IMG/VR virus record: IMGVR_UViG_3300021475_000012
Span: 1-62,037 of that record
Direction: 5' to 3' (one strand)
DNA from: a virus
Length of the DNA: 62,037 bases
Below, one piece after another: positions 1 to 62,037 of the stretch. The first letter of the stretch is position 1. Each line of letters opens with the position of its first letter. The position numbers and the translations under genes are program-made. Below the pieces are notes generated by a model. The model was not told the DNA's origin, did no database searches, and saw nothing but the letters and a program-made list of their open reading frames with translations.

Positions 1-126
1 TTGCCGTCTTCCCAGGTGCCCATCTGGATGGGCTTGCCGGTGTAGTCGTCGCCCATGTCCTTGCGGGTGTTCCGCCGGTCGTCCTTCAGGTAGCAGGTAT
101 AGAGGGTGACGGAGGGAATACGGGGC
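1..126. repeat. Direct terminal repeat, left copy
   Basis: Bases 1-126 are identical to 61899-62024. The next 13 bases differ from the right copy at three positions. The repeat lies inside the portal reading frame and keeps it open. This is what the ends of an assembled circular (or circularly permuted) molecule look like. A true short terminal repeat is the alternative. Confidence 0.93.
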
Positions 127-887
127 AGTTCGGTGTCGGTGGTAGGAGCCTTGCGAAAGGTCCAGATCGGGGAAATGACGTCTGCGGCGGAATCCCGCAT
201 CTTATTCAACCATGTAATGGCAGAGCCGTCACTCTCCGCTTTGACGTCGATGTCGTACTTGTCGCGGATATAGTTGACCGGGACCTTGCGCTTGACGACA
301 ATGCCCTGGCAGGACTCGCAGGACTCGTAGCCCAGGGGGCGTAAAGGGAGGACGTTGCGCGGGTCCTCCGCGCAGGCGTCGATGTCCTCGATGTCCGGGT
401 TCCAGAAGAGGTGTAAGTAGCCGGTGCCGCCAACCACGTAGTACTTGATGGTGTCCGCGAGGCGTAAGTCGATGTTGCGCCGCTGATACCAGAAGGTGGC
501 TAACTTACCGTAGATCTGCGCGTGCTCTTCGAAGCGCCGGTTGGCGACACTGTAGTCCCAGAAGGGGCGGGTGTCGGTCATCATGGCCGCGATATCTTCC
601 GCGATCTTGGCGATCCGGTTGGTGCGCGTGGTGGAGAGGATGCCAGGGGACGTGGAGCGGGTATCGGCGCGGACCAGTTCATCGGTGCTCATGATGGCAT
701 CGATGGCTGCGCTGATTTGATCGAACCCAGGTTGGGAGGAGAGGAAGGCTTCGGATTCGATGACCGCTTCCATCAGCCAGGAGATGGTGGGATTACTAAC
801 GTTGTTGCCGTTGAACTGGGTGCTGGGGACCGGAGAGATCGGCAGGCGAGGCGGGGTCGGAGGACCGGCAACGACAGAAGATCCCAT
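1..887 (-). CDS. Portal protein, N-terminal part (gene continues at the right end)
   Basis: The reading frame is open from an ATG at 887 down to base 1. It begins MGSSVVAGPPTP and contains the stretch TRPFWDYSVANRRFEEHAQI, typical of large P22-type phage portals. A Cys pair (ESCESCQG) lies around residues 189-196. Continued at 61898-60803 on the circular map, it encodes a protein of about 660 residues, a normal length for large portals. The portal forms the dodecameric DNA channel at one capsid vertex and docks the terminase. No strong Shine-Dalgarno precedes the ATG. Portal identity is secure from the combined halves and from the neighbouring scaffold and capsid genes. The exact start is less so. 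Confidence 0.85.
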   Translation of the reverse strand, partial: MGSSVVAGPPTPPRLPISPVPSTQFNGNNVSNPTISWLMEAVIESEAFLSSQPGFDQISAAIDAIMSTDELVRADTRSTSPGILSTTRTNRIAKIAEDIAAMMTDTRPFWDYSVANRRFEEHAQIYGKLATFWYQRRNIDLRLADTIKYYVVGGTGYLHLFWNPDIEDIDACAEDPRNVLPLRPLGYESCESCQGIVVKRKVPVNYIRDKYDIDVKAESDGSAITWLNKMRDSAADVISPIWTFRKAPTTDTELPRIPSVTLYTCYLKDDRRNTRKDMGDDYTGKPIQMGTWEDG

Positions 888-6360: not shown

Positions 6361-7659
6361 ATGACCTTGAACTACCACCGATGCCACAGCACAGACTGCG
6401 AGGGCAAGCATCCCGCGAAGACATTTACGAGCGAAACGGAAGAACATGTGAAGGGCTGGAAGCGATGCCACTGCCCCATCGTCGCCAGCGGCACTCTCAA
6501 TCGCGTGGCCAAGCGCAAGGCCACCAAGCAAACCGAATGGGCCGCAGCTGCGGAGGTGATGGTTCCCTACATCGTGGCCAAATCCTGGGTTCTTCCAGAA
6601 GACGAGCCGCCCACTCCACCGGCCCCCAAGGCACCCGTACCACCTCCCCAGACTCCCGCGCCCGCCTCTGATAAAGTCACCGTCAAAGCAGCAACTGAGG
6701 AGTACATCAAGGAACACCAAAAAGCGGAATCGGCACCGACTACGCTCGATGGACACCGGCAACGAATGGCATCGATCTGCAAGTTCGCGGAAGAAACCGG
6801 CTGGCTCTACCTGACCGATTGGGACGCCAAAATCGCCAACCAATACCTGAATCAATTTCGAGTCGCCCCCATCACGGCACGCAAGTACCGAAAGATGGTG
6901 AAGGCATTTTTCGCGTGGTGCATCGCCAAGGAATGGATCGCAACCAACCCCGGCAAGGCCGTTGCCGTGATCAACAATCGCGCCACCAGCCTGCTGAAAG
7001 TGGGGAAGGAAAGGCAACCTCTTGTCGATGCGGAACTGGAACGCATGTATCAGGGATGCCTGCGATACGACGCCCTGTTCCCGGTGCGCAAATGGAGAGG
7101 AGAGGATCTGGCGGATTTCATCGCTCTCTCCGTTCACACCGGCCTGCGAATTTCGGATGTCGCCACCTTCAATATCAACCGGTTGAAAGGCGCGGATGAG
7201 GTCCGCATCCGCACGCTGAAGAGAGGCAAGATGGTCTACACCGTTGTGCCGCCCTGGTTGGCAGAACGCATCCGCATTCGGGCAGAGAAGTTTGGCCCAC
7301 TGATTTTCGGTGCTCATCGTTCCACCAAACTTGACGTCATCACCCACTGCTGGCGGATGCGGTTGAACGAACTCTGGAAGCAATGCGGCTCCTGGGAGAT
7401 CAAGCCTACGCCGCACCGCTTCCGGCATACCTTCTGTCGCATTCTGCTGGAAAGCGGCAGATCCTACGCCGATGTCGCGGACCTGACCGGCGACACAGAA
7501 GCCGTAATCCGGGAACACTACGCATCCTGGGTACCGGGACGGCAAGAACGGGTCTCTAAACTGCTGCGCGAATCCTTCGCGGATGTGCCGGTCCCGGCAT
7601 ACGCCAGATCAAACAAGCCTGCCAGAGTGATCGAGATGGTCAAAGTTAAACGCGGATAG
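6361..7659 (+). CDS. int: Phage integrase, tyrosine recombinase
   Basis: The 432-residue protein has an unusual Cys/His N-terminus (C8, C13, H17 and C36-H-C38), a Pro-rich linker near 83-102, a core-binding domain at about 105-215, and a catalytic domain. Catalytic residues are visible: R263 (TGLRISDV), Lys near 287-290, H352xxR355 (HRFRHTF), and Tyr387 (REHYASW). The usual GH box is GD (D378). It should integrate the phage at attB using the attP just upstream. It lies alone on the plus strand among minus-strand genes, with an excisionase-like gene converging on its 3' end. The N-terminal pattern resembles integrases I associate with Acidobacteriota, a weak host clue. Confidence 0.92.
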   Translation: MTLNYHRCHSTDCEGKHPAKTFTSETEEHVKGWKRCHCPIVASGTLNRVAKRKATKQTEWAAAAEVMVPYIVAKSWVLPEDEPPTPPAPKAPVPPPQTPAPASDKVTVKAATEEYIKEHQKAESAPTTLDGHRQRMASICKFAEETGWLYLTDWDAKIANQYLNQFRVAPITARKYRKMVKAFFAWCIAKEWIATNPGKAVAVINNRATSLLKVGKERQPLVDAELERMYQGCLRYDALFPVRKWRGEDLADFIALSVHTGLRISDVATFNINRLKGADEVRIRTLKRGKMVYTVVPPWLAERIRIRAEKFGPLIFGAHRSTKLDVITHCWRMRLNELWKQCGSWEIKPTPHRFRHTFCRILLESGRSYADVADLTGDTEAVIREHYASWVPGRQERVSKLLRESFADVPVPAYARSNKPARVIEMVKVKRG

Positions 7660-19014: not shown

Positions 19015-19147
19015 GTTAGACTTACCCCAACTTAGATTGTAACCACTTACTTTTTTCTTTTTTGGGGTGTATACGGAATCAGCCCCGCGCCTCGCGGGGG
19101 TAGGGCACCCCCCCTGGACAATTCCGCTAAGTCCTTTAGAATCCACC

Positions 19148-19229: not shown

Positions 19230-19248
19230 CTCCGATTGCAGCGGTGAT

Positions 19249-19286
19249 GGATGCGGATGTGGAGGCGGATGTGGAGGCGGATGTGG
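19249..19286 (+). repeat. Tandem GGATGY/GGAGGC hexamers
   Basis: Six hexamers alternate GGATGT and GGAGGC (12-bp period, about three turns) in the control region. Iteron-like, but also compatible with simple-sequence slippage. Confidence 0.55.
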
Positions 19287-19525: not shown

Positions 19526-19553
19526 ACTCCATGACCTAAGGACACTTACCGCA

Positions 19554-20330
19554 ATGAAACGCATTGCCTCAGCTGCTAAGACTCGTCTACCGAAACTCTC
19601 CCAGGGCTATATTCTGTATGAGAACGATTCCATCGTAGTCATCGCCACGGGTATCACCCGCAAATCCACCAACAAAAAGACGGGCGCAATGATCCAGATC
19701 TACATCCTGGTACGGCATACGCACCCCGTCGAAGCCGTTAAGTTAGGGCTGGATCGCGCTATCTGCATTGACTGTATCCACATGGGTACCGAAGGGTTTA
19801 AAGAGCGCAGTTGCTATGTGGACATGAAAGGGCCCATAGCCGTATGGGAAGCGTACCAGCGCGGATCGTACCCCCACATCACAGAGGAACTGTACGCCCG
19901 CGTGTTCACTAACAGGGCCGTCCGTTTCGGCACCTACGGGGAGCCATGCTTGATTCCCCTGGGTATCATTCGCCGCATTGTGCGCGTCTGCAATCGCCAT
20001 AGCGGCTATACGCACCAGTGGGCTAACGGAATTGACGGCGAGTACCTGCAGTACCTCATGGCATCCTGTGACCGTCCCGGTGACGCGGACAAGGCGCATG
20101 CCCTGGGATTCCGTACGTTCCGCGTGGAACCTACTCACGGTGTATCGCCTCTCCCAGGTGAGATCATTTGCCCGTCAGAGTCGCGTGGGCATAACTGCGT
20201 CGACTGTAAGCTCTGTAACGGCGCTGTATCAGGCGCGAAGTCGGTCATGATCACGGTACATGGCGCGGGCGCAAGGCATCTCCAAACCAAGCTAGATCGC
20301 CTCATTCAAATCGAGGGATTCGCCGCCTAA
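19554..20330 (+). CDS. Conserved phage protein (DUF7227-like)
   Basis: A 258-residue protein. GYILYENDSIVVIATGITRK, a ridged N-terminal beta region, then CIDCIHMG, RSCYVDMKGPIAVWEAYQRG, and CPSESRGHNCVDCKLCNG near the C-terminus give several Cys pairs. I recall this as a widespread phage protein, often labelled DUF7227, without a known function. It is the first gene of the early block and is preceded by the hairpin and start-associated sequence. Confidence 0.72.
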   Translation: MKRIASAAKTRLPKLSQGYILYENDSIVVIATGITRKSTNKKTGAMIQIYILVRHTHPVEAVKLGLDRAICIDCIHMGTEGFKERSCYVDMKGPIAVWEAYQRGSYPHITEELYARVFTNRAVRFGTYGEPCLIPLGIIRRIVRVCNRHSGYTHQWANGIDGEYLQYLMASCDRPGDADKAHALGFRTFRVEPTHGVSPLPGEIICPSESRGHNCVDCKLCNGAVSGAKSVMITVHGAGARHLQTKLDRLIQIEGFAA

Positions 20331-20334
20331 CTCC

Positions 20335-20357
20335 TGGGGGAGTAACTTACTCCCCCA
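20335..20357 (+). promoter_or_regulatory. Strong intercistronic hairpin
   Basis: TGGGGGAGTAA and TTACTCCCCCA are perfect 11-bp arms around one base (a folded stem of about 8 bp). There is no following T-run, so it is probably not a simple terminator. It precedes the second start-associated sequence by 14 bp. Confidence 0.7.
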
Positions 20358-20393
20358 TAACTTACCTAACTTATCGACTAAGGACACATACCA

Positions 20394-20570
20394 ATGAAAC
20401 TGACAAGAGAAGAAACCAAGAAACGCGCCGCCCTGATTGCTTCCGTTATTCCAGGGTCAACAGTAGTAGCGAACGCCTGGAATATCACGGTTGTTACCCG
20501 TGGCGGCAAACACGTTGCCATATGGGTTGGGCGTAAAGATGGATTCACCAAAGTGGAGTGGGCACGCTAA
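20394..20570 (+). CDS. Small basic protein, 58 residues
   Basis: MKLTREETKKRAALIASVIP, then VVTRGGKHVAIWVGRKDGF. It has a start-associated sequence ten bases upstream, and its stop overlaps the next ATG (TAATG). Small, basic, beta-rich C-terminus. No family recognised. Typical of early host-takeover or anti-defence proteins only by size and location. Confidence 0.65.
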   Translation: MKLTREETKKRAALIASVIPGSTVVANAWNITVVTRGGKHVAIWVGRKDGFTKVEWAR

Positions 20571-20782
20571 TGAAAAAGCAATACCGCATTCAACGTAGCG
20601 ACTATCTGGGTATCGTTACCCGCGCCTTTGGGGGCAGATGTGCTTCCTGGTCCCCGTGGCGCACTGTGATAGCCCGCGATCATGAGGAAGACGCTACGGC
20701 GCTGTATGACGCATGGTCCCGTAAGGGACTCACCCGCTGGCGGCTGATGTATGGCAAGGAAGTTATCCGCAAGAGTGAATAA
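20570..20782 (+). CDS. Small basic protein, 70 residues
   Basis: MKKQYRIQRSDYLGIVTRAF with Arg and Trp richness. Translationally coupled to the 58-residue gene upstream. A longer in-frame start exists but would overlap that gene. Function unknown. Confidence 0.62.
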   Translation: MKKQYRIQRSDYLGIVTRAFGGRCASWSPWRTVIARDHEEDATALYDAWSRKGLTRWRLMYGKEVIRKSE

Positions 20783-20801
20783 TCGACAAAGGACACCCAC
20801 A

Positions 20802-20843
20802 ATGCACACATTGGATCTCACCCAATACGACGTCACGGTGTGA
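20802..20843 (+). CDS. 13-residue ORF behind a start-associated sequence
   Basis: MHTLDLTQYDVTV has a full start-associated sequence (20781-20796) at normal distance. Directly after its stop comes a long hairpin (20844-20897) and then another start-associated sequence. It could be a leader peptide controlling the genes behind it, or a remnant of a deleted gene. Confidence 0.45.
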   Translation: MHTLDLTQYDVTV

Positions 20844-20897
20844 CTAATAGCCCACTAGGAGCCCACCTATACGGAGGGCTCCCGTGGGGGCTGTTAG
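20844..20897 (+). promoter_or_regulatory. Long ~54-nt hairpin before the 20920 gene
   Basis: The outer stem CTAATAGCCC (20844-20853) pairs with GGGCTGTTAG (20888-20897) with one G-U. The inner stem is GGAGCCC (20858-20864) with GGGCTCC (20876-20882). It ends six bases before TATCGAAAGGACAC. The 24161-24216 hairpin has the same build and the same inner stem sequence in inverted order. Confidence 0.75.
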
Positions 20898-20919
20898 CCC
20901 TCATATCGAAAGGACACTT

Positions 20920-21144
20920 ATGACATACGTAATCAGACTGATCAACGACAACTCGATGCAAACGCTGTACAGCGGCAATTCCGCTAAAGCCGCCCAGAAG
21001 GCCGTGGATATGGCACGCGGCATCCTGATCATCTCCGGCGGCACTGCTGGCATCTATGGGCACGTTTGGGGCAAGACCGCCCTGTTGTGGGAAGTGAACG
21101 ACGGCCAAGCCACATGCCCCGAAGGGACCAGCCCGCTGGCATGA
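20920..21144 (+). CDS. Hypothetical protein, 74 residues
   Basis: MTYVIRLINDNSMQTLYSGN ... AVDMARGILIISGGTAGIYG. Small alpha/beta protein. The first strand resembles that of the 24236 gene (MTYNVTITDSG), so the two may be distant paralogues. Its start is set by the start-associated sequence, ignoring an upstream in-frame start. Confidence 0.6.
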   Translation: MTYVIRLINDNSMQTLYSGNSAKAAQKAVDMARGILIISGGTAGIYGHVWGKTALLWEVNDGQATCPEGTSPLA

Positions 21145-21224
21145 TAGAACTGATTGAAGTCCTGGGCTTTGTCGCGCTAATGATCGTAATCTATATCGGA
21201 AAGAGAAAAGGATTGTGGAAGTAA
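21141..21224 (+). CDS. 27-residue single-span membrane peptide
   Basis: MIELIEVLGFVALMIVIYIG then KRKGLWK: one hydrophobic helix with a positive C-terminus. The ATG overlaps the upstream stop (ATGA). Such micro-proteins often modulate host membrane complexes. Function unknown. Confidence 0.55.
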   Translation: MIELIEVLGFVALMIVIYIGKRKGLWK

Positions 21225-21243
21225 GTAATCGAAAGGACATCTT

Positions 21244-21504
21244 ATGGCATACGTAAAGCAAACCAACGGCACGATTCGCGAAGTACTCAACCTGGGCTGG
21301 ATCTTGCGCCACTGGCAACATGTGGAACGCCTGGAATGGATCTCCGGCCCTGGGGGCTGGAATAACACCTTCCGCGCTTACCTGAAGGATGGACGCGAGT
21401 ACGTCACCGACTACGCTTGCTTCGAAGTCTGGAAGGGCTTTATCAATCGCCCCGTGTTTCGCGGGCTACCAGCCACGGTCGACGGCATCACCGGACGCAT
21501 CTAA
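21244..21504 (+). CDS. Hypothetical protein, 86 residues
   Basis: MAYVKQTNGTIREVLNLGWI with several Trp residues and an alternating beta pattern (TFRAYLKDGREYVTDYACFE). A start-associated sequence ending in ACAT lies three bases upstream. Unknown family. Confidence 0.62.
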   Translation: MAYVKQTNGTIREVLNLGWILRHWQHVERLEWISGPGGWNNTFRAYLKDGREYVTDYACFEVWKGFINRPVFRGLPATVDGITGRI

Positions 21505-21530
21505 CATCAATCGAAAAGGACACTAATACC

Positions 21531-21962
21531 ATGCAAACGACGATCAATAAGAACCTCCTGCAGTACGCGGTCCAGACCGCTATCGCTTGCCCCCGTTGCG
21601 CGAAAGTGCTCGACATGCGCCAAGCGGTTACCACTACCCTGACCGTGCCGGATAACGGCACGCGCCAATTCACCATGTGCTGCGCCTGTTGGGACAAGGT
21701 GCGCCTGGAACTCCATGACCTTGCCATCGGCATCAAGGGCAACCTTGACGTCTTAGATGGCCGCGACTTATTCCCTCCCACCTTGGCCGAAGCTAAGCGC
21801 ATCGTGAAGGCCATGGGGATGACCCTCCGCTATGATCGCGAGTACCAGGAGTACAGCGTCAACTATCCCGGCGGCAAAGAGGCTACCCGCTGCTACACCA
21901 ATGACATCCTCGATGCCATCGGGACCGCTAAGGCCATGGCCAAGGCAAAGGGAGGCAAGTAA
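21531..21962 (+). CDS. Zinc-ribbon-like hypothetical protein
   Basis: The 143-residue protein has ACPRCAKVLD and MCCACWDKV, two Cys pairs in ribbon spacing (about residues 20-53), then a helical C-terminus with Lys/Ala repeats. Start-associated sequence seven bases upstream. Two bases separate it from the next gene. Confidence 0.62.
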   Translation: MQTTINKNLLQYAVQTAIACPRCAKVLDMRQAVTTTLTVPDNGTRQFTMCCACWDKVRLELHDLAIGIKGNLDVLDGRDLFPPTLAEAKRIVKAMGMTLRYDREYQEYSVNYPGGKEATRCYTNDILDAIGTAKAMAKAKGGK

Positions 21963-21963
21963 G

Positions 21964-22668
21964 ATGCAGCTTCTCCGCAATAAGACGAGCAACCGCTACT
22001 GCGGGCCGAATGCCCTGGCCCTGCTCACCGGCCAGCATGTGGACGATGTGACCCGCATGCTGCGCATGGTATCCGGCAGGCCCGCGATCAAGGGCACGCA
22101 TAACCGGCATATGTTAGCCGTCCTGGAGCGCCTGGGCTTTAGCGCATTGCCGGTCCCCCTGGGGGCCGGTGCCGATACCCGGAAGGGCAAGCGCACCTCC
22201 TGCCCTACCCTGGCGAAGGCCCTGCGCACCGTTCTCAAGGACCGCCAAGCCTCTCAACGGTTCCTGGTAGTGGTTGGGCACCACTACGTGTGCATCCAGG
22301 GCCGGAAGGTCTGGGATTACCGCGACTACCCGGAAGGGGAGTTCCTGGGCTCCTGTAAGCTGCGGCGGTGCCGCGTCACCGGCATCTGGGCAGTGAGCCT
22401 GAAGGGGGACCAGCCGGTCCCCCCACCGGCCAAGCCCGCCTCTACCGCGATGCAACGCGCCCGCTTCATTCCGGCCATTGAGAAGCTGGGCCTGGAAGTG
22501 GACGCCGATGTGGTTGATGCCCCCAGGGGCTTTGTGTTCAGCGGCACGGGCAACCATTGCCGCGCCATCACCGGCACTTATGCCGAAGCCCTGGAAGATA
22601 TCCAGAGCATTCTGCCCCTGGTGCCTTGCACAGATCCCGATTGCGACATGTGCCAGGAGGAGAACTAA
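21964..22668 (+). CDS. Papain-like (C39-type) cysteine-peptidase-fold protein
   Basis: A 234-residue protein. RYCGPNALALLTG puts Cys13 at the start of a helix. FLVVVGHHYVCIQGRKVWDYR supplies His106/107 and Asp118. Cys, then His, then Asp, with the CGPxA word, is the order of papain-fold (C39-like) peptidases and relatives. A second half ends in a Cys cluster (CTDPDCDMC). It lacks a signal peptide, so a cytoplasmic role such as cleaving or remodelling host proteins is more likely than lysis. Catalysis is inferred from residues only. Confidence 0.55.
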   Translation: MQLLRNKTSNRYCGPNALALLTGQHVDDVTRMLRMVSGRPAIKGTHNRHMLAVLERLGFSALPVPLGAGADTRKGKRTSCPTLAKALRTVLKDRQASQRFLVVVGHHYVCIQGRKVWDYRDYPEGEFLGSCKLRRCRVTGIWAVSLKGDQPVPPPAKPASTAMQRARFIPAIEKLGLEVDADVVDAPRGFVFSGTGNHCRAITGTYAEALEDIQSILPLVPCTDPDCDMCQEEN

Positions 22669-22669
22669 C

Positions 22670-23092
22670 ATGACGGTATATCACTGCACCTGGACACGGC
22701 TGGTTGACCGCATTTATAAGCAAGGCCTGCGCACTATGCAGGCTTCCAACTGGAAGATAGCCTCTAATGGCACCCGCTACGGGAGTGGGGCTATCTTCGC
22801 CTTCGCCAGTAAGTGGGACGCCATCCGTTGGGCGGCTAAGATGGACTGGCAGTTCTATGGGCGGCACGCCACGGGAGAGGTCACCATTCTCACCCTGGAA
22901 CATGAGGGCCCCTGGATTACCGATGACGCGGACCCGCTTACCCAGGCGCAATGCGAGGGCCCCTGGCTCAAGACATATCATCATATTCCCGGAGCCGCGA
23001 TCACCGATGCGGATCTGTTGACGCAGGATATGGTCAAAGCCCTGGTCAAGCGCGTCAATCAGCCCCAGTTAGCTAGAATCGAAGGCAAGTAA
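22670..23092 (+). CDS. Hypothetical protein with an ADP-ribosyltransferase-like start
   Basis: The 140-residue protein begins MTVYHCTWTRLVDRIYKQGL and continues GSGAIFAFASKWDAIRWAAK. The pattern YHxT...I...GL...IFAF...A..WA is what small ART-fold proteins (YHGT-type) show. The catalytic Glu cannot be assigned with confidence. AGGAGGAGAAC is a strong ribosome site. Could be a host-modifying enzyme. The fold is a guess from motif rhythm. Confidence 0.42.
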   Translation: MTVYHCTWTRLVDRIYKQGLRTMQASNWKIASNGTRYGSGAIFAFASKWDAIRWAAKMDWQFYGRHATGEVTILTLEHEGPWITDDADPLTQAQCEGPWLKTYHHIPGAAITDADLLTQDMVKALVKRVNQPQLARIEGK

Positions 23093-23114
23093 TCTCAATC
23101 GAAAAGGACACCTT

Positions 23115-23474
23115 ATGACAACGAACATTAAAGAGCAGGTATTTCCCAAGAGCAGTCTCTTCTCCCCCGGCAACGGGCGCGACTATCTCAAGACCCCCGA
23201 AGGCGAGATCTTCTCCATCAATGGCCTGTACTGCGACAAGGACGGCAACCAGGACCGTTGGGGAAGCTATACCAAAGTCATCGACATCCGCTGGACGGTA
23301 GTCATCTGGCAGGACTGCTATGTGGGCCTGAATCCCGATTACAGCTATAAGACAGAGCGCCGTCTGGTATTCACAGGCGATAACCGGGATGAGGAGATCC
23401 TGGCACGCTACGGCTACCGGATGGAACGTGACGCGGAAGGCTACAAGAACGTATTCCCCCTGGAGGTCAAGTAA
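23115..23474 (+). CDS. Hypothetical protein, 119 residues
   Basis: MTTNIKEQVFPKSSLFSPGN, a Tyr/Trp/Asp-rich beta protein (RWTVVIWQDCYVGLNPDYSY). Start-associated sequence three bases upstream. No family recognised. Confidence 0.6.
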   Translation: MTTNIKEQVFPKSSLFSPGNGRDYLKTPEGEIFSINGLYCDKDGNQDRWGSYTKVIDIRWTVVIWQDCYVGLNPDYSYKTERRLVFTGDNRDEEILARYGYRMERDAEGYKNVFPLEVK

Positions 23475-23477
23475 GTT

Positions 23478-23753
23478 ATGCCGCGCTTTGTGGTGGGGAC
23501 CGGCCAGCGTTGCCCTATGACAGAGCACTTGAAGATCGCCCTGGTAGCCAAGCGCGTGAACTGGCTGGTCTACCTGGGTTACCAGGGCATCCTCATCACC
23601 GATAAGGAAAGCGGTTGGAAGTGCATTGCCAATGGCAAGGTAACCGCAGAGCAGCTAACTAAGGCTCTGCATGCGGATGAGGTAAGCATCGCCCATCTGC
23701 TGAAGCGTAGAGAGTACCAGAAGAAACAATATCGAAAGGACAAAGAACGATGA
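23478..23753 (+). CDS. Hypothetical basic protein, 91 residues
   Basis: MPRFVVGTGQRC ... GYQGILITDKESGWKC and a strongly basic C-terminus (EYQKKQYRKDKER). It has no start-associated sequence of its own, and a start at the later ATG (23517, MTEHLKI) is possible. Its 3' end carries the next gene's start-associated sequence. Confidence 0.52.
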   Translation: MPRFVVGTGQRCPMTEHLKIALVAKRVNWLVYLGYQGILITDKESGWKCIANGKVTAEQLTKALHADEVSIAHLLKRREYQKKQYRKDKER

Positions 23754-24004
23754 TATTCCCCACAATCCACCTGAACGGCACTAATCCCCAGGACCTCCTG
23801 GAAGACCAGCTGCACATGATCGATAAGTTACGGGACGCCATCCGCGCCATGGAGCACAACGGCCCCAATGGCCGGGACTACTATCCCCAGGGCTCCCAGG
23901 CGTTCCAGCATGCCGTGGAGGAGCACGAGCAGCGGCTCCTGGTATTGCGCAACGTCCTGGCTGAGCTAGAGACGATTGCGGAACATGTGGCGAAGCACGT
24001 TTAA
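23750..24004 (+). CDS. Conserved helical phage protein
   Basis: The 84-residue protein has THLNGT-like start (IHLNGTNPQDLLEDQ), AMEHNGPNGRDYYPQG, and a helical end. The NGT...LL...PNGRDYY pattern recurs in many phage proteins of unknown function. Start-associated sequence seven bases upstream, and overlap with the previous stop. Confidence 0.68.
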   Translation: MIFPTIHLNGTNPQDLLEDQLHMIDKLRDAIRAMEHNGPNGRDYYPQGSQAFQHAVEEHEQRLLVLRNVLAELETIAEHVAKHV

Positions 24005-24026
24005 TCGAAAGGACACCATAAGCAAC

Positions 24027-24164
24027 ATGACGCGCAAACAACTGATCGAGGAAGTCCAGAAGCTGCGGAGGAAGGGTGACCCTCTGGTCCCCTTCGATAA
24101 AGCGGAGCTAGAACAACGCCTGAAGGAATACCAGGAGAGGGAGAAAGCTAAGCCACGGGCCTAA
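24027..24164 (+). CDS. Small charged helical protein, 45 residues
   Basis: MTRKQLIEEVQKLRRKGDPL, then coiled-coil-like ELEQRLKEYQEREKAK. Start-associated sequence ten bases upstream. Its stop overlaps the start of the long hairpin at 24161. Confidence 0.6.
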   Translation: MTRKQLIEEVQKLRRKGDPLVPFDKAELEQRLKEYQEREKAKPRA

Positions 24165-24216
24165 GGGCACCCTGGATCGGGCTCCCATGCCGGAGCCCCT
24201 TCCAGGCTATCCTTAG
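24161..24216 (+). promoter_or_regulatory. Long ~56-nt hairpin before the 24236 gene
   Basis: Three stacked stems: CTAAGG/CCTTAG (24161-24166 with 24211-24216), CCTGG/CCAGG (24171-24175 with 24202-24206), and GGGCTCC/GGAGCCC (24179-24185 with 24192-24198). It ends four bases before TATCGAAAGGACAC, matching the design at 20844-20897. Confidence 0.78.
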
Positions 24217-24235
24217 CCTATATCGAAAGGACACT

Positions 24236-24499
24236 ATGACATACAACGTAACGATCACTGATAGCGGTGCCCGCGTGTCGAGCACCATCGAAGCCGCCGA
24301 TATCGAAGCCGCTTGCGAGTTGATGGAGAAGTCCATGAAGGAAGCGGAGCAAGTCACCGCCGGGAATCCTGGTTGTGAGCCGCGCACCGAATGGATTTGC
24401 TTTGTCCTCGCTGGTTACTACGCTGAGTGCAGTCTGCGCTCCGAAGGCGAACAGGACGCCGCTTGCTGGACTAAGGTCACCATCGAGGAGGTCCGGTAA
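24236..24499 (+). CDS. Hypothetical protein, 87 residues
   Basis: MTYNVTITDSGARVSSTIEA, then helical (DIEAACELMEKSMKEAEQ) and a Trp/Cys-containing end. Start-associated sequence one base upstream of the ATG. Stop overlaps the next start. Possibly a distant paralogue of the 20920 protein. Confidence 0.62.
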   Translation: MTYNVTITDSGARVSSTIEAADIEAACELMEKSMKEAEQVTAGNPGCEPRTEWICFVLAGYYAECSLRSEGEQDAACWTKVTIEEVR

Positions 24500-25502: not shown

Positions 25503-26555
25503 ATGACTAAACAAACCAGCACTACCCAGAACCAGCTGGTCCCCATGCCGGGACTGCCCAAGAGCGTAAGCGCAGCCGATGCCCTGGTGGAGATGGCCTT
25601 AGCTACTTGCACCAGCGACAACACCCGCCGCGTTTACCGGCTGCGGCTCCGCTACTATCTCGCTTCCCAATTACCCTTCAACCGGGAAGGGGTCGCTGCG
25701 CACTTGGCGCAGCTGCGCCAGGAGGGAAAGGGCGAGTGCGTCACCATGCTGGCCATGGCGGCGATCAAGAAACTCGCCAAGGAAGCTGAGATCCGCCACC
25801 TGATCTCCTATGACGAGTACCGCCAGATCACCGACTTATCCGGCGGCAAGGTGCAACGCCAGAAGACGGGCATGTGGCTCACCGTTAGCGAAGTCGAAGA
25901 CCTCCTGGCCCTGCCTGACCGCACGACTTACTACGGCAAGCGCGATGCCGCCATCCTCTGCGCCCTGGTGGGCACCGGCCTGCGCCGGGATGAGCTACTT
26001 CACCTGAACTGGGACCAGTACCAGTCCCGCGAGGGCCGGATGTGCCTTGTGAACGTGAAGGGCAAGGGAGGGAAGCTGCGCACTGTGCCCGTGCCCCTCT
26101 GGGCCCAGCCGGATATCGACGTCTGGCAAGTCACCATCCAGACCCAGGAGCCGCCCCCGGCTCCCGGCGCTCTGGAAGCCGCCAATCTCATCAGGCGGGA
26201 GCGGCACCCCTTGAACTCCAAACGCTTCTGCGGGCGCTTGGGCTCGACGCGCCTCGCGGAGATCGTCATCGGCTACGGCCAGCGGATCGGCATCGACCTC
26301 CGGCCCCATGACCTCAGGCGCACCCTGGCGAAGATGATGCACCGTGCCGGTGCCGGGATCGAGCAGATTCAGTTCACCCTGGGGCACCAGCACATGCAAA
26401 CCACCACCATCTACCTGGGCTCCCTGCTCGAAATCGCCCCCGGCCAAGCAGGCGTGGACAAGGTCCAGATCGCCATCAACCGCAAGCTGCGCACCAAGGT
26501 AGTCGAGATGGACCGGCTGGACTCCCACCTCGCCGCCGCCGGGGGGAAGGCATGA
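25503..26555 (+). CDS. Second tyrosine recombinase (XerC/D-like)
   Basis: A 350-residue protein. N-terminal SAM-like core-binding domain (~25-110), then the catalytic domain with R161 (GTGLRRDEL), a Lys in VKGKGGKLRTVPV, H269xxR272 (PHDLRRTL), H295 (LGHQHMQTT), and Tyr304 (TIYLG). All six expected catalytic residues are present, and the helix-rich, linker-free form is closer to Xer proteins than to the 6361 integrase. It lies in the early operon, far from the attP repeats. Roles could be multimer resolution, DNA inversion, or an alternative integration site. Confidence 0.88.
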   Translation: MTKQTSTTQNQLVPMPGLPKSVSAADALVEMALATCTSDNTRRVYRLRLRYYLASQLPFNREGVAAHLAQLRQEGKGECVTMLAMAAIKKLAKEAEIRHLISYDEYRQITDLSGGKVQRQKTGMWLTVSEVEDLLALPDRTTYYGKRDAAILCALVGTGLRRDELLHLNWDQYQSREGRMCLVNVKGKGGKLRTVPVPLWAQPDIDVWQVTIQTQEPPPAPGALEAANLIRRERHPLNSKRFCGRLGSTRLAEIVIGYGQRIGIDLRPHDLRRTLAKMMHRAGAGIEQIQFTLGHQHMQTTTIYLGSLLEIAPGQAGVDKVQIAINRKLRTKVVEMDRLDSHLAAAGGKA

Positions 26556-27094: not shown

Positions 27095-27482
27095 GTATCT
27101 ACCAACACAACTCTGGAAACCCGCTTTTCCCTTCATTTCTCTCTAGTGAAAACCTATACATATCATGGGGGTAGTCAGCTACCCTACTTTGCGGGTATCC
27201 GGCCACATAGCCCTATTTCCCGCTATCGCCGGAGCCCCAATAACAACGGGGTCCGCGAGGACATAAGTAGGCCGTGAGCGGCGGCTCGAAAGAGCCGCCC
27301 GAAAGGACTACCTTATGTCTTCTTTCTTTATTTAGCCTCTCTTTTTAACAGGAAATTTCGGTCTTTATTCTGGTTTCTTACAATGGTATATGGCTGGCGC
27401 TATTAATGTACTAGCGGAATGCACTTGTTATTAATGGTTCCCTCTATTGACAAACTTATTCCCATGAAATAGCGTTACTGCC
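27095..27482 (+). ncRNA. Gene-free structured region (possible ncRNA or cis-regulatory RNA)
   Basis: Downstream of the terminator, 388 bp with no gene hold nested structures. There is a GGGTAG/CTACCC hairpin (27169-27184). GCGGG/CCCGC (27191, 27219) and CCGGC/GCCGG (27199, 27228) cross and could form a pseudoknot. A stem GGA-CCCC/GGGGTCC follows (27231-27254). Last is an outer stem GACATAAG/CTTATGTC (27260, 27312) enclosing GGCGGCTC-GAAA-GAGCCGCC (27280-27299). The outer stem buries an ATG (27315) behind a weak start-associated sequence, opening only a 6-codon ORF. After 27336 it is AT-rich promoter sequence. No known RNA family was recognised. Confidence 0.5.
27447..27475 (+). promoter_or_regulatory. 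Promoter with consensus -35 before the RHH regulator
   Basis: TTGACA (27447-27452), a 17-bp spacer, and a weak -10 TAGCGT (27470-27475). The predicted transcript would start at or beside the ATG at 27483, i.e. leaderless, as for some phage repressor genes. Confidence 0.45.
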
Positions 27483-33171: not shown

Positions 33172-33462
33172 ATGGAAGTAACACCAGAGATGGCTGAATT
33201 AGCACAACGCAGTATTGCGTTGGCATTTCTGGAAACACGGCATTCGGACAATTTGATGGACCGTGTACAGCAAACGGCGGAATACCTTCTTGCCTCGCGA
33301 GATGTTATGGAACTGATATCAAAGTGTCTTGCGGATACAACAGCCTCTGACGCCAGTCGAATCCTACAGTGTATGGCGATTGCATTTATAGCTGGCGGAT
33401 CATGGGGAGTCCAAATGCAGAAATTAGCGGGAAAGGCAACTAATGAAACAAATCACCATTGA
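33172..33462 (+). CDS. Hypothetical helical protein, 96 residues
   Basis: MEVTPEMAELAQRSIALAFL. All-helical, with a Gly/Ser/Ala-rich hydrophobic stretch (MAIAFIAGGSWGVQMQK). Codon use looks less GC-rich than its neighbours. Starts directly after the previous stop and overlaps the Sak4-like gene by 20 bp. Unknown function. Confidence 0.58.
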   Translation: MEVTPEMAELAQRSIALAFLETRHSDNLMDRVQQTAEYLLASRDVMELISKCLADTTASDASRILQCMAIAFIAGGSWGVQMQKLAGKATNETNHH

Positions 33463-34294
33463 AGGTTTCAGTTTTAACTCGACTCCTGAGAACCGCCCCG
33501 CGATCTGCGTCTTTGGCGAGGAGAATGTTGGTAAGAGCCGCTTCGGCTGTACCGCGCCCCACGAGGACGGCCTGATCGGCTGGCTGGCGCTCGACAAGAA
33601 CTCCAAGGGAGCCGTGGACGAGTACAAGCGGGTTCACAAGGCGAACCACATCATGGTCAACGCCAAGCCGCTGATGACCAATTCCGAAGCGATCAAAGTG
33701 GCCATGGAGGACGATCCCAAAAAGACCAAGGTCACTTACAAGGAGATCCTCAATCGGGTCTTCGAACTGGGCATGGCCATCGCGGACCACAAGGATGTGG
33801 AGAGCGTGGTGGTCGATGACGGGAGCCAGCTGTTCGACTGGATTCTGTTCAGTCACTTCGGACGCCGCAACCAGATCGAGAGCTTCATGCGCGGGGCTCC
33901 CAACAACGACTTCATCGAGTTTGTGAATGCCATGGGCAGTAAGAACTTGGTCATGATCTGCCGGGGCACCGATGTCTGGGCCGATACCGGCGAGGTGGAC
34001 GACAAGGGCAAGAAAAAGCAGGCCCCCACCGGCAAAATGAAACCGGAGGGTTTCGGCAAGATCGGTAAGTTCATGACTGCCGTATTGGAGTTGACCGCAG
34101 CCAGGAAGAAGCCCGCTACCGATGCAAATGGGGAAGTGGATGTAAAGAAGGCTTTAGCGGCGAAGTACCGCTGCAAGGTAGTTACCTGCAAGGGAGACAC
34201 GCTGCTAGAGGGCCAGGACCTGGAGCCCTTCGGAGTCTGCGGCGAAGCCATCAACTGGGAGAACGTGATGGAAGTTATCAAGGCAAAGGAGTAG
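33443..34294 (+). CDS. RecA-like P-loop ATPase (Sak4-type recombinase)
   Basis: A 283-residue protein. ICVFGEENVGKSRF places Walker A at 25-32. VESVVVDDGSQLFD (119-132) is Walker B. A basic, lysine-rich region (KKKQAPTGKMKPEGFGKIGK) follows. This is the compact RecA-core ATPase family called Sak4 in phages, which promotes single-strand annealing with an SSB partner. It sits amid nuclease genes, as usual. Confidence 0.78.
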   Translation: MKQITIEGFSFNSTPENRPAICVFGEENVGKSRFGCTAPHEDGLIGWLALDKNSKGAVDEYKRVHKANHIMVNAKPLMTNSEAIKVAMEDDPKKTKVTYKEILNRVFELGMAIADHKDVESVVVDDGSQLFDWILFSHFGRRNQIESFMRGAPNNDFIEFVNAMGSKNLVMICRGTDVWADTGEVDDKGKKKQAPTGKMKPEGFGKIGKFMTAVLELTAARKKPATDANGEVDVKKALAAKYRCKVVTCKGDTLLEGQDLEPFGVCGEAINWENVMEVIKAKE

Positions 34295-34795: not shown

Positions 34796-35569
34796 ATGAT
34801 CGCCATCGACACCAGGACCGGCAGTAAGGAACTGGCACCGCTTTTCCGCCCCTATGGGATTCCCATAGAAGTACGCAAGCTCGATTTTGGGGACCTTGCG
34901 TTCGAGGGCAACGGCCCCAGGGGAAGGTGCATGATTGCCGTCGAGCGCAAGACCATCACTGAGTTGGTGCAGAGTATCGAGAGCCGCCGGTTGAGCGGCC
35001 ACCAACTGCCGGGGATGGCCGATGCGTACGACTACTGCTATCTGGTGATCGAGGGGATGTGGCGTCCGGGAACCCAGGGGGAATTGATCGTAGGCCACGG
35101 CACGCTCGACCATGGCCGCACTTTCGGGGGCACCTGGAGCCCCGGCTACGGCCAGGGGATCGGCTACCGCGCCGTGGACAACTACCTCGCCACCATGGAA
35201 CTGCATGCCGGGGTAATCTTCCGCAGGACGTTGACGCCAATCGAAACGGTGGCGATTACGGTGGACCTTTTCCACTGGTGGAATGACAAGCCCTGGGAGA
35301 AACACAGCGCCCACCTGGGGGTCTATGCGCCCGCCGTGGCGCTCACCGGCAGGAGCAGGCTGAATCTGGTGCGCCGGGAGATCCCGCTGCGCGAGAAGTG
35401 GGCCATGCAGATCGACGGCATCGACATGGTGATCGCGGAGCGGGCGGCGGCGCGGTTCGAGAGCGCCTGGGCTCTGGCGGCGGGGACCGCAGCCGATTGG
35501 CAGGAGATCCGGGGCATCGGCAGGCCCACCGCGCAACGGATTGTGAGGGATATCAATGCTTCGCTATAG
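34796..35569 (+). CDS. ERCC4/XPF-family nuclease with C-terminal HhH
   Basis: A 257-residue protein. DTRTGS at the start (D5), KLDFGDLAF (GD at 32-33), and AVERKTITELVQSI (VERK at 49-52) form the ERCC4 nuclease site. The C-terminal EIRGIGRPTAQRIVRDI is a helix-hairpin-helix for DNA binding. Such nucleases cut branched or flapped DNA at ss/ds junctions. It completes the recombination module. Confidence 0.82.
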   Translation: MIAIDTRTGSKELAPLFRPYGIPIEVRKLDFGDLAFEGNGPRGRCMIAVERKTITELVQSIESRRLSGHQLPGMADAYDYCYLVIEGMWRPGTQGELIVGHGTLDHGRTFGGTWSPGYGQGIGYRAVDNYLATMELHAGVIFRRTLTPIETVAITVDLFHWWNDKPWEKHSAHLGVYAPAVALTGRSRLNLVRREIPLREKWAMQIDGIDMVIAERAAARFESAWALAAGTAADWQEIRGIGRPTAQRIVRDINASL

Positions 35570-60802: not shown

Positions 60803-62037
60803 CTAGCTCTCCTTAGTAACTACTCGCGGGGGAGCCTGGGCCGAAGCCTTGCGCCCAGCGGCGTTGATATCGCCGGAAAGGCCCATCTGTTGCTGGTAGA
60901 GGATGCGCTCCGGGATGGTTCGCACGTTGTCCGGGAGGACGCCGATGTTGGGGATGCCCAGGACTTCCCAGAGGGTGAAGATGTCCATCCAACCGGCGCG
61001 GGTGAGTTGCAGGTAGATCATCTTCTGCTCCACCTGGGCTGAGTTCAGCCAGGAACCGGGAGTGATCTTGAAGACGAAGCGCCGGAGGAATTCCTTGGCA
61101 CGGTCCCAGCGCGGCATAGGGCCGCGCAGGATGGCTTCGGGGCTGATCGAGCCGTCTGCCCCGTAATCGGCATCGTGAACGAAATCGGGGATCATGGAGC
61201 CGGGGTCGAAGTCGAAGTCGTCCTGGGTGACGCCACCGGGGCCTAGCTCTACAACCCGCATGGGCAGGGTGTAGAACTGCGAGAAGTTATATGCCAATTG
61301 CATGGCTAACTCGCGGGTGAAGGCTTCCAGGATGCGGGAACGCATGCGGATCGCCGGGGTCATCTGGTGGATGATGGCTTCGACAGAGTCGTTAGAAGGA
61401 AGCTGCTTCAGCCCCATCAGCTGCTCGATGGCGCTAACTCCGCTTAGCTCGTCCATTTCAGTCTGAATCCACTTGATGTGCTCCCAGATCGATTGGTCGA
61501 GAGGGGGCGGGGTGATGATTTGGATTCCCTTACCGGCGAGGGGGTTTTGATAGATCTTATAGCCCGCTCTCCTGGTGTCGAAGCTATCGAACTGGGAGCG
61601 CGAGACGCTGTTCTTATCATGAATCGACCCCGGCTGGGCCACCTGCGCCGCATGGTCGTCCACCACCCGGAGGAGACGGTTGAGCGATGTCTGCAGCCGC
61701 AGGAGGTCCCAGACCGGAGCCTTCCCTAGCCATGTCCAGGGGTAGGGATTCAAGGTCAGTTTCAGGATCGGGAAGTGGCCATGCCAGTAGTAACTGGGGC
61801 CGTCATAAAGCATATGCTGGCCTACCCAGGAAATGGTGCGGCGGTTGGGATAGAGCTTGTCGCCCAGTTCCACTTTGTAGGACCAGTTGTTGACCGGCTT
61901 GCCGTCTTCCCAGGTGCCCATCTGGATGGGCTTGCCGGTGTAGTCGTCGCCCATGTCCTTGCGGGTGTTCCGCCGGTCGTCCTTCAGGTAGCAGGTATAG
62001 AGGGTGACGGAGGGAATACGGGGCGGTTGGGTGGCGG
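60803..62037 (-). CDS. Portal protein, C-terminal part (gene starts at the left end)
   Basis: This frame enters from the right edge and ends at 60803. From 61898 it continues the left-edge portal without a break. Motifs: DLLRLQTSLNRLLRVVDDHA, LSGVSAIEQLMGLKQLPSND, and RAGWMDIFTLWEVLGIPNIG near the C-terminus, matching large P22-type portals. Bases 62025-62037 (three differences from 127-139) change three residues and probably reflect an assembly edge or strain variation. Confidence 0.9.
   Translation of the reverse strand, partial: ATQPPRIPSVTLYTCYLKDDRRNTRKDMGDDYTGKPIQMGTWEDGKPVNNWSYKVELGDKLYPNRRTISWVGQHMLYDGPSYYWHGHFPILKLTLNPYPWTWLGKAPVWDLLRLQTSLNRLLRVVDDHAAQVAQPGSIHDKNSVSRSQFDSFDTRRAGYKIYQNPLAGKGIQIITPPPLDQSIWEHIKWIQTEMDELSGVSAIEQLMGLKQLPSNDSVEAIIHQMTPAIRMRSRILEAFTRELAMQLAYNFSQFYTLPMRVVELGPGGVTQDDFDFDPGSMIPDFVHDADYGADGSISPEAILRGPMPRWDRAKEFLRRFVFKITPGSWLNSAQVEQKMIYLQLTRAGWMDIFTLWEVLGIPNIGVLPDNVRTIPERILYQQQMGLSGDINAAGRKASAQAPPRVVTKES
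61899..62024. repeat. Direct terminal repeat, right copy
   Basis: Identical to 1-126. Marks the circular overlap of the contig; the remaining 13 bases diverge from the left copy at three positions. Confidence 0.93.

Follow-up and report, generated by a model that had tools for sequence, protein, structure and literature searches.

The early gene block and its repeated tag

The window analyzed here is the whole of IMG/VR virus record IMGVR_UViG_3300021475_000012, a stretch of 62,037 bases with early genes on the plus strand and late genes on the minus strand (gene calls were obtained with a home-made gene caller). Our subject is a short sequence, hereafter called the tag, that stands directly before start codons in the early block. 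Its core motif AAGGACA occurs 12 times on the plus strand, and 10 of these copies fall within 19538-24227, each with an ATG at most 18 nt downstream (Table 1). The minus strand holds four copies, two of which are the same site at the overlapping contig ends. In terms of density, this amounts to 10 copies in 4.7 kb of one strand against approximately 6 in the remaining ~119 kb of both strands. The ten sites, which read AAGGACA(C), precede the ATGs at 19554, 20394, 20802, 20920, 21244, 21531, 23115, 23750, 24027 and 24236.

A first-pass annotation of the window had described ten pre-start copies of one element within 4.7 kb. The number is correct, but the element is not a fixed 15-mer: ATCGA is found 5' of AAGGACA in nine copies, at a spacing of 0 (five copies), 1 (two) or 2 bases (two), whereas tag 1 (19538) lacks ATCGA and shows CATGACCT instead. 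The ends vary as well (ACAT in one copy, ACAA in another). Overall, the tag consists of ATC(G/A), an A-rich spacer of variable length and AAGGACAC. Because the spacing between ATCGA and AAGGACA varies by 0-2 bases, a search for the 15-mer with three mismatches allowed recovers two true copies only.

One copy was said to precede a 13-codon open reading frame (ORF), and this is indeed the case for tag 3. All plus-strand genes of the early block with a gap of more than 4 nt are tagged, up to the integrase gene at 25503 (gap 23), which is untagged and has only AGAGGACTT. The claim that nearly all early genes not coupled by overlap carry the tag holds to this extent, but the tag at 23731 serves gene 23750, which overlaps its upstream neighbor by 4 bases. 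Outside the early block a relaxed tag pattern matches only at 34806, 50914 and 27867 (minus strand), in no case before a start, in line with the statement that no other gene block of the window uses the tag. At 27283-27334 a 10-bp stem of the GGCGGCTC-GAAA-GAGCCGCC type is followed by a degenerate tag, CCGAAAGGACTACC (27299), TT and the ATG of a six-codon, T-rich frame (MSSFFI). In appearance this site is the end of an operon that imitates a tagged start.

Flanks and folding of the tagged starts

When the ten window copies are aligned on AAGG, the information content is 2.0 bits at seven successive bases and 1.1 bits at the next; the ATCGA signal is smeared in this alignment by the variable spacing. 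The tag flanks carry as much as 2 bits per base, those of 174 ordinary ribosome sites of the same phages almost none, and 58 untagged GGA-containing sites of the window show 0-0.4 bits outside the core. Also the base 3' of GGA differs (C in the tag, usually G in the control sites). Conservation thus extends past the Shine-Dalgarno core, as had been proposed.

Compared to other genes, the predicted pairing of the tagged starts with the anti-Shine-Dalgarno sequence is weaker (for CCUCCUUA) or equal (for CCUCCUUUCU), but never stronger. The region from -20 to +20 has a mean predicted folding energy of -1.3 kcal/mol for tagged starts against -6.5 kcal/mol for untagged ones. The mean for uncoupled ATG starts of similar GC content is -4.2 kcal/mol (n = 46), which also differs from that of the tagged starts (p = 1e-5). 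What accompanies the conserved flanks is thus openness of the start region, and not strength of the core.

The tag in related phages

Among named phages no relative of the window was found at the DNA level, neither for the early nor for the late DNA, and TerL gave weak matches only. A conserved late protein used as query yielded nine IMG/VR loci, from which the records near the length of the window were compared: G003 (63.2 kb), G004 (63.2 kb) and G006 (61.7 kb). The DUF7227 family, to which the product of gene 19554-20330 is related (also phrog_2554), was dropped as a guide to relatives since it matches many phages and is too widespread.

G004 carries five tags of the form ATCGA(GA)AAGGACAC. 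G003 has seven, mostly ATCAAAGGACACC or ATCAAAAGGACACC, with one degenerate copy (AAAAGACACC before 60198). No repeated tag is present in G006, which shows one partial look-alike. Random flanks in relatives had been set beforehand as the outcome that would speak against the proposal; G003 and G004 keep the flanks in 12 copies. The fourth base of ATC(G/A) is G in all 14 copies of the window and G004, and A in six of the seven copies of G003 (p = 1e-4). In two G003 tags, before 56252 and 61318, the ATCAAA block is doubled (ATCAAAATCAAATCAAAGG; L109 16221-16244 and L110 1285-1302). Scans for the tag followed by ATG in IMG/VR and prokaryote genomes gave single matches at chance level, except for the two relatives; one locus (L008) had two copies.

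Among the 21 tagged ORFs of the three phages only two orthologue pairs are tagged on both sides, namely the DUF7227 gene (window 19554, G003 56252) and window 21531 with G004 57541. The integrase orthologue is tagged in G003 and untagged elsewhere, and the G003 orthologues of 21531 and 23750 are untagged. Homology between the tagged genes of different phages is the exception, and the tag can be gained or lost within a set of orthologues, so that it marks a position in the early block and not particular genes. Three tagged genes without detectable homology (20920, 24236 and G004 58650, locus L123) have identical first nine bases, ATGACATAC.

Structured leaders upstream of tags

Six tagged gaps contain a leader of 71-78 nt that runs from the previous stop to the ATG: two in the window (Table 1), two in G003 (before 57328 and 57879) and two in G004 (before 56691 and 57061). 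G003 has a further, related leader before 59162 (gap 75), in which AGGAG takes the place of the tag. The layout is as follows. Arm A lies at the stop codon of the upstream gene or overlaps it; next come hairpin B, which is rich in GC, and hairpin S, which is smaller; 2-8 bases then separate S from the tag. Arm A is complementary to the loop of S and to part of its stem, and the long stem that can form in this way (A:A'), which encloses B, is in competition with S; forcing hairpin S costs a predicted 0 to 4.6 kcal/mol. Neither the structured-leader copies nor the G003-wide block change had been foreseen in the first-pass annotation.

Predicted structure is stronger in tagged than in untagged gaps (mean z -3.2 against -0.4, Mann-Whitney p = 5e-5). 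Of the long gaps, 5 of 11 tagged ones and 3 of 71 untagged ones have a hairpin with 5 or more pairs 7-45 nt 5' of the start. Scored with a three-helix grammar, 6 of the 21 tagged starts reach at least 42.8, as do 2 of the 262 untagged ones; these figures are descriptive. With the S loop fixed, the complementarity of arm A exceeds the genome background (combined p = 4e-6; single leaders 0.002 to 0.46), but the outcome is less favourable against dinucleotide shuffles.

The two tagged leaders of G003 are paralogues; each spans the distance from stop to start codon between unrelated genes. A comparison of the two shows one double change each in B, S and the long stem with all pairs kept, whereas slid partners keep about half at most. 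These slid controls favour the structures; shuffling the letters is uninformative as a control when there are two sequences, since 137 and 135 of 500 shuffles attain the observed values. Column 45, a base of S, covaries both with its partner in S (53) and with its partner in arm A (7), and such a joint change is what two alternative folds would require. A MAFFT alignment of the six leaders of the three phages was too divergent to count covariation. A pseudoknot of arm A and the S loop may be considered, but a mutually exclusive switch would fit at least as well because arm A competes also with the S stem. A comparison with Rfam gave no match at the gathering score for the window and, judged by E-value, one sub-threshold match for the relatives, outside the leaders. 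The structured leader appears to be new.

Table 1. Positions of the tags, leaders and putative promoter of the early block in the window
Feature	Position	Strand	Remarks
Sigma-70-like promoter match	19115..19142	+	TGGACA-16-TAGAAT, 10/12; consensus match only, match number not above shuffles; possibly the promoter of the early operon
Tag 1	19538..19545	+	AAGGACAC, no ATCGA; before 19554-20330
Tag 2	20373..20387	+	ATCGACTAAGGACAC; before 20394-20570
Tag 3	20782..20796	+	ATCGACAAAGGACAC; overlaps stop of previous gene; before 13-codon ORF 20802-20843
Leader 1	20844..20919	+	arm A 20844-20853, hairpin B 20858-20882, hairpin S 20884-20904, then tag 4
Tag 4	20905..20917	+	ATCGAAAGGACAC; before 20920-21144
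Tag 5	21228..21240	+	ATCGAAAGGACAT; before 21244-21504
Tag 6	21510..21523	+	ATCGAAAAGGACAC; before 21531-21962
Tag 7	23098..23111	+	ATCGAAAAGGACAC; before 23115-23474
Tag 8	23731..23743	+	ATCGAAAGGACAA; within end of previous gene; before 23750-24004
Tag 9	24004..24016	+	ATCGAAAGGACAC; overlaps stop of previous gene; before 24027-24164
Leader 2	24165..24235	+	arm A ~24161-24167 (including TAA stop of previous gene), hairpin B 24179-24198, hairpin S 24204-24219, then tag 10
Tag 10	24222..24234	+	ATCGAAAGGACAC; before 24236-24499

Possible function of the tag and the leaders

Judging from sequence comparison, the tag is probably a start-associated sequence (SAS) that acts at translation initiation, with a coupling leader in the longer gaps. 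The tagged early genes would be transcribed as one operon, in which the modest Shine-Dalgarno core AAGGA, placed in a conserved, A/C-rich and unstructured stretch, would serve to load ribosomes at genes that are not overlap-coupled. Conservation outside the core, together with the shared change from ATCG to ATCA in most G003 copies, suggests that the 16S tail is not alone in reading the flanks; a factor encoded by phage or host might do so, or a different part of the ribosome. In the leaders, a ribosome that terminates on the upstream gene may cover the stop-codon region, set the fold and in this way link the downstream start to upstream translation.

A more specific proposal, which we put forward as speculative and rather doubtful, is that the leaders are a modular RNA switch that senses the stop codon: the terminating ribosome would free or block the pairing between the stop region and the second hairpin and thereby set initiation at the tag. 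If so, the phage would own a reusable coupling cassette that fits between any two unrelated genes. The leaders are alike in layout and unlike in sequence, from which it is predicted that the downstream start depends on translation of the upstream gene.

Several observations weigh against these interpretations. G006, a true relative of the group, does without the tag, and the carriers are three phages only. Between AAGG and ATG the distance varies from 8 to 18 nt, a wider range than an optimised ribosome site would be expected to show. Of the seven A:A' pairings, three are weak when taken singly, the tag stays unhidden in both predicted leader folds, and the leader grammar was written only after the leaders had been seen.

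Alternatively, the tag may be a regulator site. Here a phage or host RNA-binding protein or a small RNA would bind the tag and repress or activate translation of the early set in the style of a T4 RegA operator, with the flanks as recognition site and the core covered upon binding. Two conserved blocks do flank the core, one base has changed phage-wide in G003, and the ATCAAA block is repeated in two of its tags. Nonetheless, no candidate regulator was identified, the spacing of 0-2 bases between the blocks argues against a single rigid site, and openness alone could account for part of the conservation; we consider this explanation possible, although not likely.

The finding that tags persist while the tagged genes differ among relatives might alternatively point to exchange boundaries, with tags and leaders as short shared sequences for gene swapping by homologous recombination between phages. 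The two similar G003 leaders, which span stop to start between unrelated genes, would agree with this, as would the Sak4-like annealing protein that is perhaps encoded at 33443-34294 (a weak match). However, thirteen bases are short for recombination, and the constant position before the ATG, the single orientation and the open start region are all unpredicted. Also, the double changes in the leader stems imply structural selection, the nearby tyrosine recombinase is Xer-like and not integron-like, and orthologues of this recombinase are present in tagless relatives. Exchange is an improbable explanation of the tag. We likewise give little credence to RNA processing, in which the leader hairpins would be nuclease sites of the kind found in T7 early mRNA and the tag the 5' end of a processed message: long imperfect hairpins do lie shortly 5' of the starts in six gaps, but half of the tags have no hairpin and cleavage needs no fixed tag.

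An ordinary Shine-Dalgarno site, with flanks that only seem conserved through recent duplication of genes or leaders, is very improbable: a few tagged genes share their first codons (the three with ATGACATAC), but the relatives contradict it, as the flanks are kept across phages before unrelated genes, and the flanks are random at other sites that share the GGA core. Integron attC cassettes were ruled out, since the integrase (25503-26555) is Xer-like and falls well short of the integron cut-off. Nor is there support for reading the tag or the leader as a plain sigma-70 promoter. By the sigma-70 consensus, which may not be that of the host, promoter-like sites are no commoner than in shuffles and none coincides with a tag or leader; terminator-like sites exceed shuffles in G004 only (13 against 8.1), with none at tags or leaders.

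Genome layout and host

The ends of the window (1-139 and 61899-62037) are near-repeats of ~140 bases with few differences and the portal gene is split across them, so the window is most likely one circular or permuted genome. It encodes two tyrosine recombinases, at 6448-7659 and 25503-26555, of which the second is the Xer-like one. Just 5' of the early block, at ~19245-19285, tandem GGATGTGGAGGC repeats lie beside other short inverted repeats, and this may be an origin or regulator region. The octamer TGCCGGTG (or its complement) is strongly overabundant in the window (36 against ~3 expected) and occurs 54 times in G003 and 22 times in G004.

With respect to the host, a TerL profile was run against 347 Acidobacteriota genomes, with a strong match (E = 4e-52) in one, and against 1,445 genomes of Alpha- and Gammaproteobacteria, Gemmatimonadota, Actinobacteria and the phylum of an Opitutaceae genome, with none at the thresholds used. 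TerL, portal and late protein of the matching 34.5-kb contig (G305 contig 38, L160-L161) have ~30-39% identity to the group. As this contig is seemingly all phage and a binning error is possible, it gives a weak hint of an Acidobacteriota host. In five assemblies from this phylum, that genome among them, no 16S 3' end was found.

Comparison with known start-associated sequences

Structured RNA or conserved sequence directly 5' of early genes is also known from the early RNase III sites of T7 and the translational operators of T4. The position is alike, but there is no sequence in common.

The parallel with the SAS of cluster K mycobacteriophages, drawn in the first-pass annotation, is close, and that with the Microbacterium phages of cluster EF is closest. 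Cluster K phages have 11-19 copies of the SAS GGGATAGGAGCCC, about half of them with an extended SAS (ESAS) of 17-base inverted repeats (PMC3203893); the ESAS of Adephagia contain SigA-like hexamers (PMC11373665). In cluster EF (AnnaSerena, Krampus) the SAS is GGGAAAGGACCCC, with ten copies and an ESAS centred on GTAGAG (PMC7302621). As late as 2025, a survey covering 188 genomes asked for functional tests of SAS, whose effect on expression is not established (PMC12699233).

We compared the genomes of AnnaSerena (EF) and Anaya (K) side by side with the tagged phages. In common with cluster K, an asymmetric tag of 13 bases stands before unrelated non-structural genes in one orientation, a subset is extended upstream, and the upstream element at times occurs without the tag. 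The sequence differs (the core in cluster K is AGGAG), and Anaya holds no copy of the tag ATCGAAAGGACAC. Instead of 17-base inverted repeats with hexamers, the leaders described here have two hairpins starting from the stop codon and no promoter-like hexamers. Moreover, cluster K SAS are found mainly in gaps of more than 50 bp, whereas 10 of the 21 tagged ORFs lie in gaps shorter than 40 nt and about half of the tags in gaps shorter than 31 nt. Anaya SAS starts are not especially open (mean -5.6 kcal/mol).

Cluster EF shares with the window the approximately ten copies, the position at the ribosome site, flanks conserved past the core and an extra conserved element upstream. Differences concern the outer GGG...CCC and the upstream GTAGAG, EF features that are absent from the tag and leaders, and the start regions, which average -6.7 kcal/mol in AnnaSerena against -1.3 for the tagged starts.

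Summarizing, the tag has the features of the SAS class: a short asymmetric repeat at the ribosome-site position of many non-structural genes, in one orientation, conserved past the bases that pair with 16S (ATCGA and CAC lie outside the core) and common to relatives before genes of different families. It belongs to neither family, as cluster K is defined by GGGATAGGAGCCC with at most two deviations and cluster EF by GGGAAAGGACCCC plus the upstream GTAGAG, of which only GAAAGGAC.C is in common with the tag. As far as sequence can tell, the tag is SAS-like in its working and outside both described sequence families, and thus an independent case of a known but unexplained kind of element that is more than a ribosome site. 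SAS have been known since 2011 from a few actinobacteriophage clusters. The present phages, a group that has no cultivated member, add a third case with the overlapping core AAAGGAC, which suggests that this device arises repeatedly.

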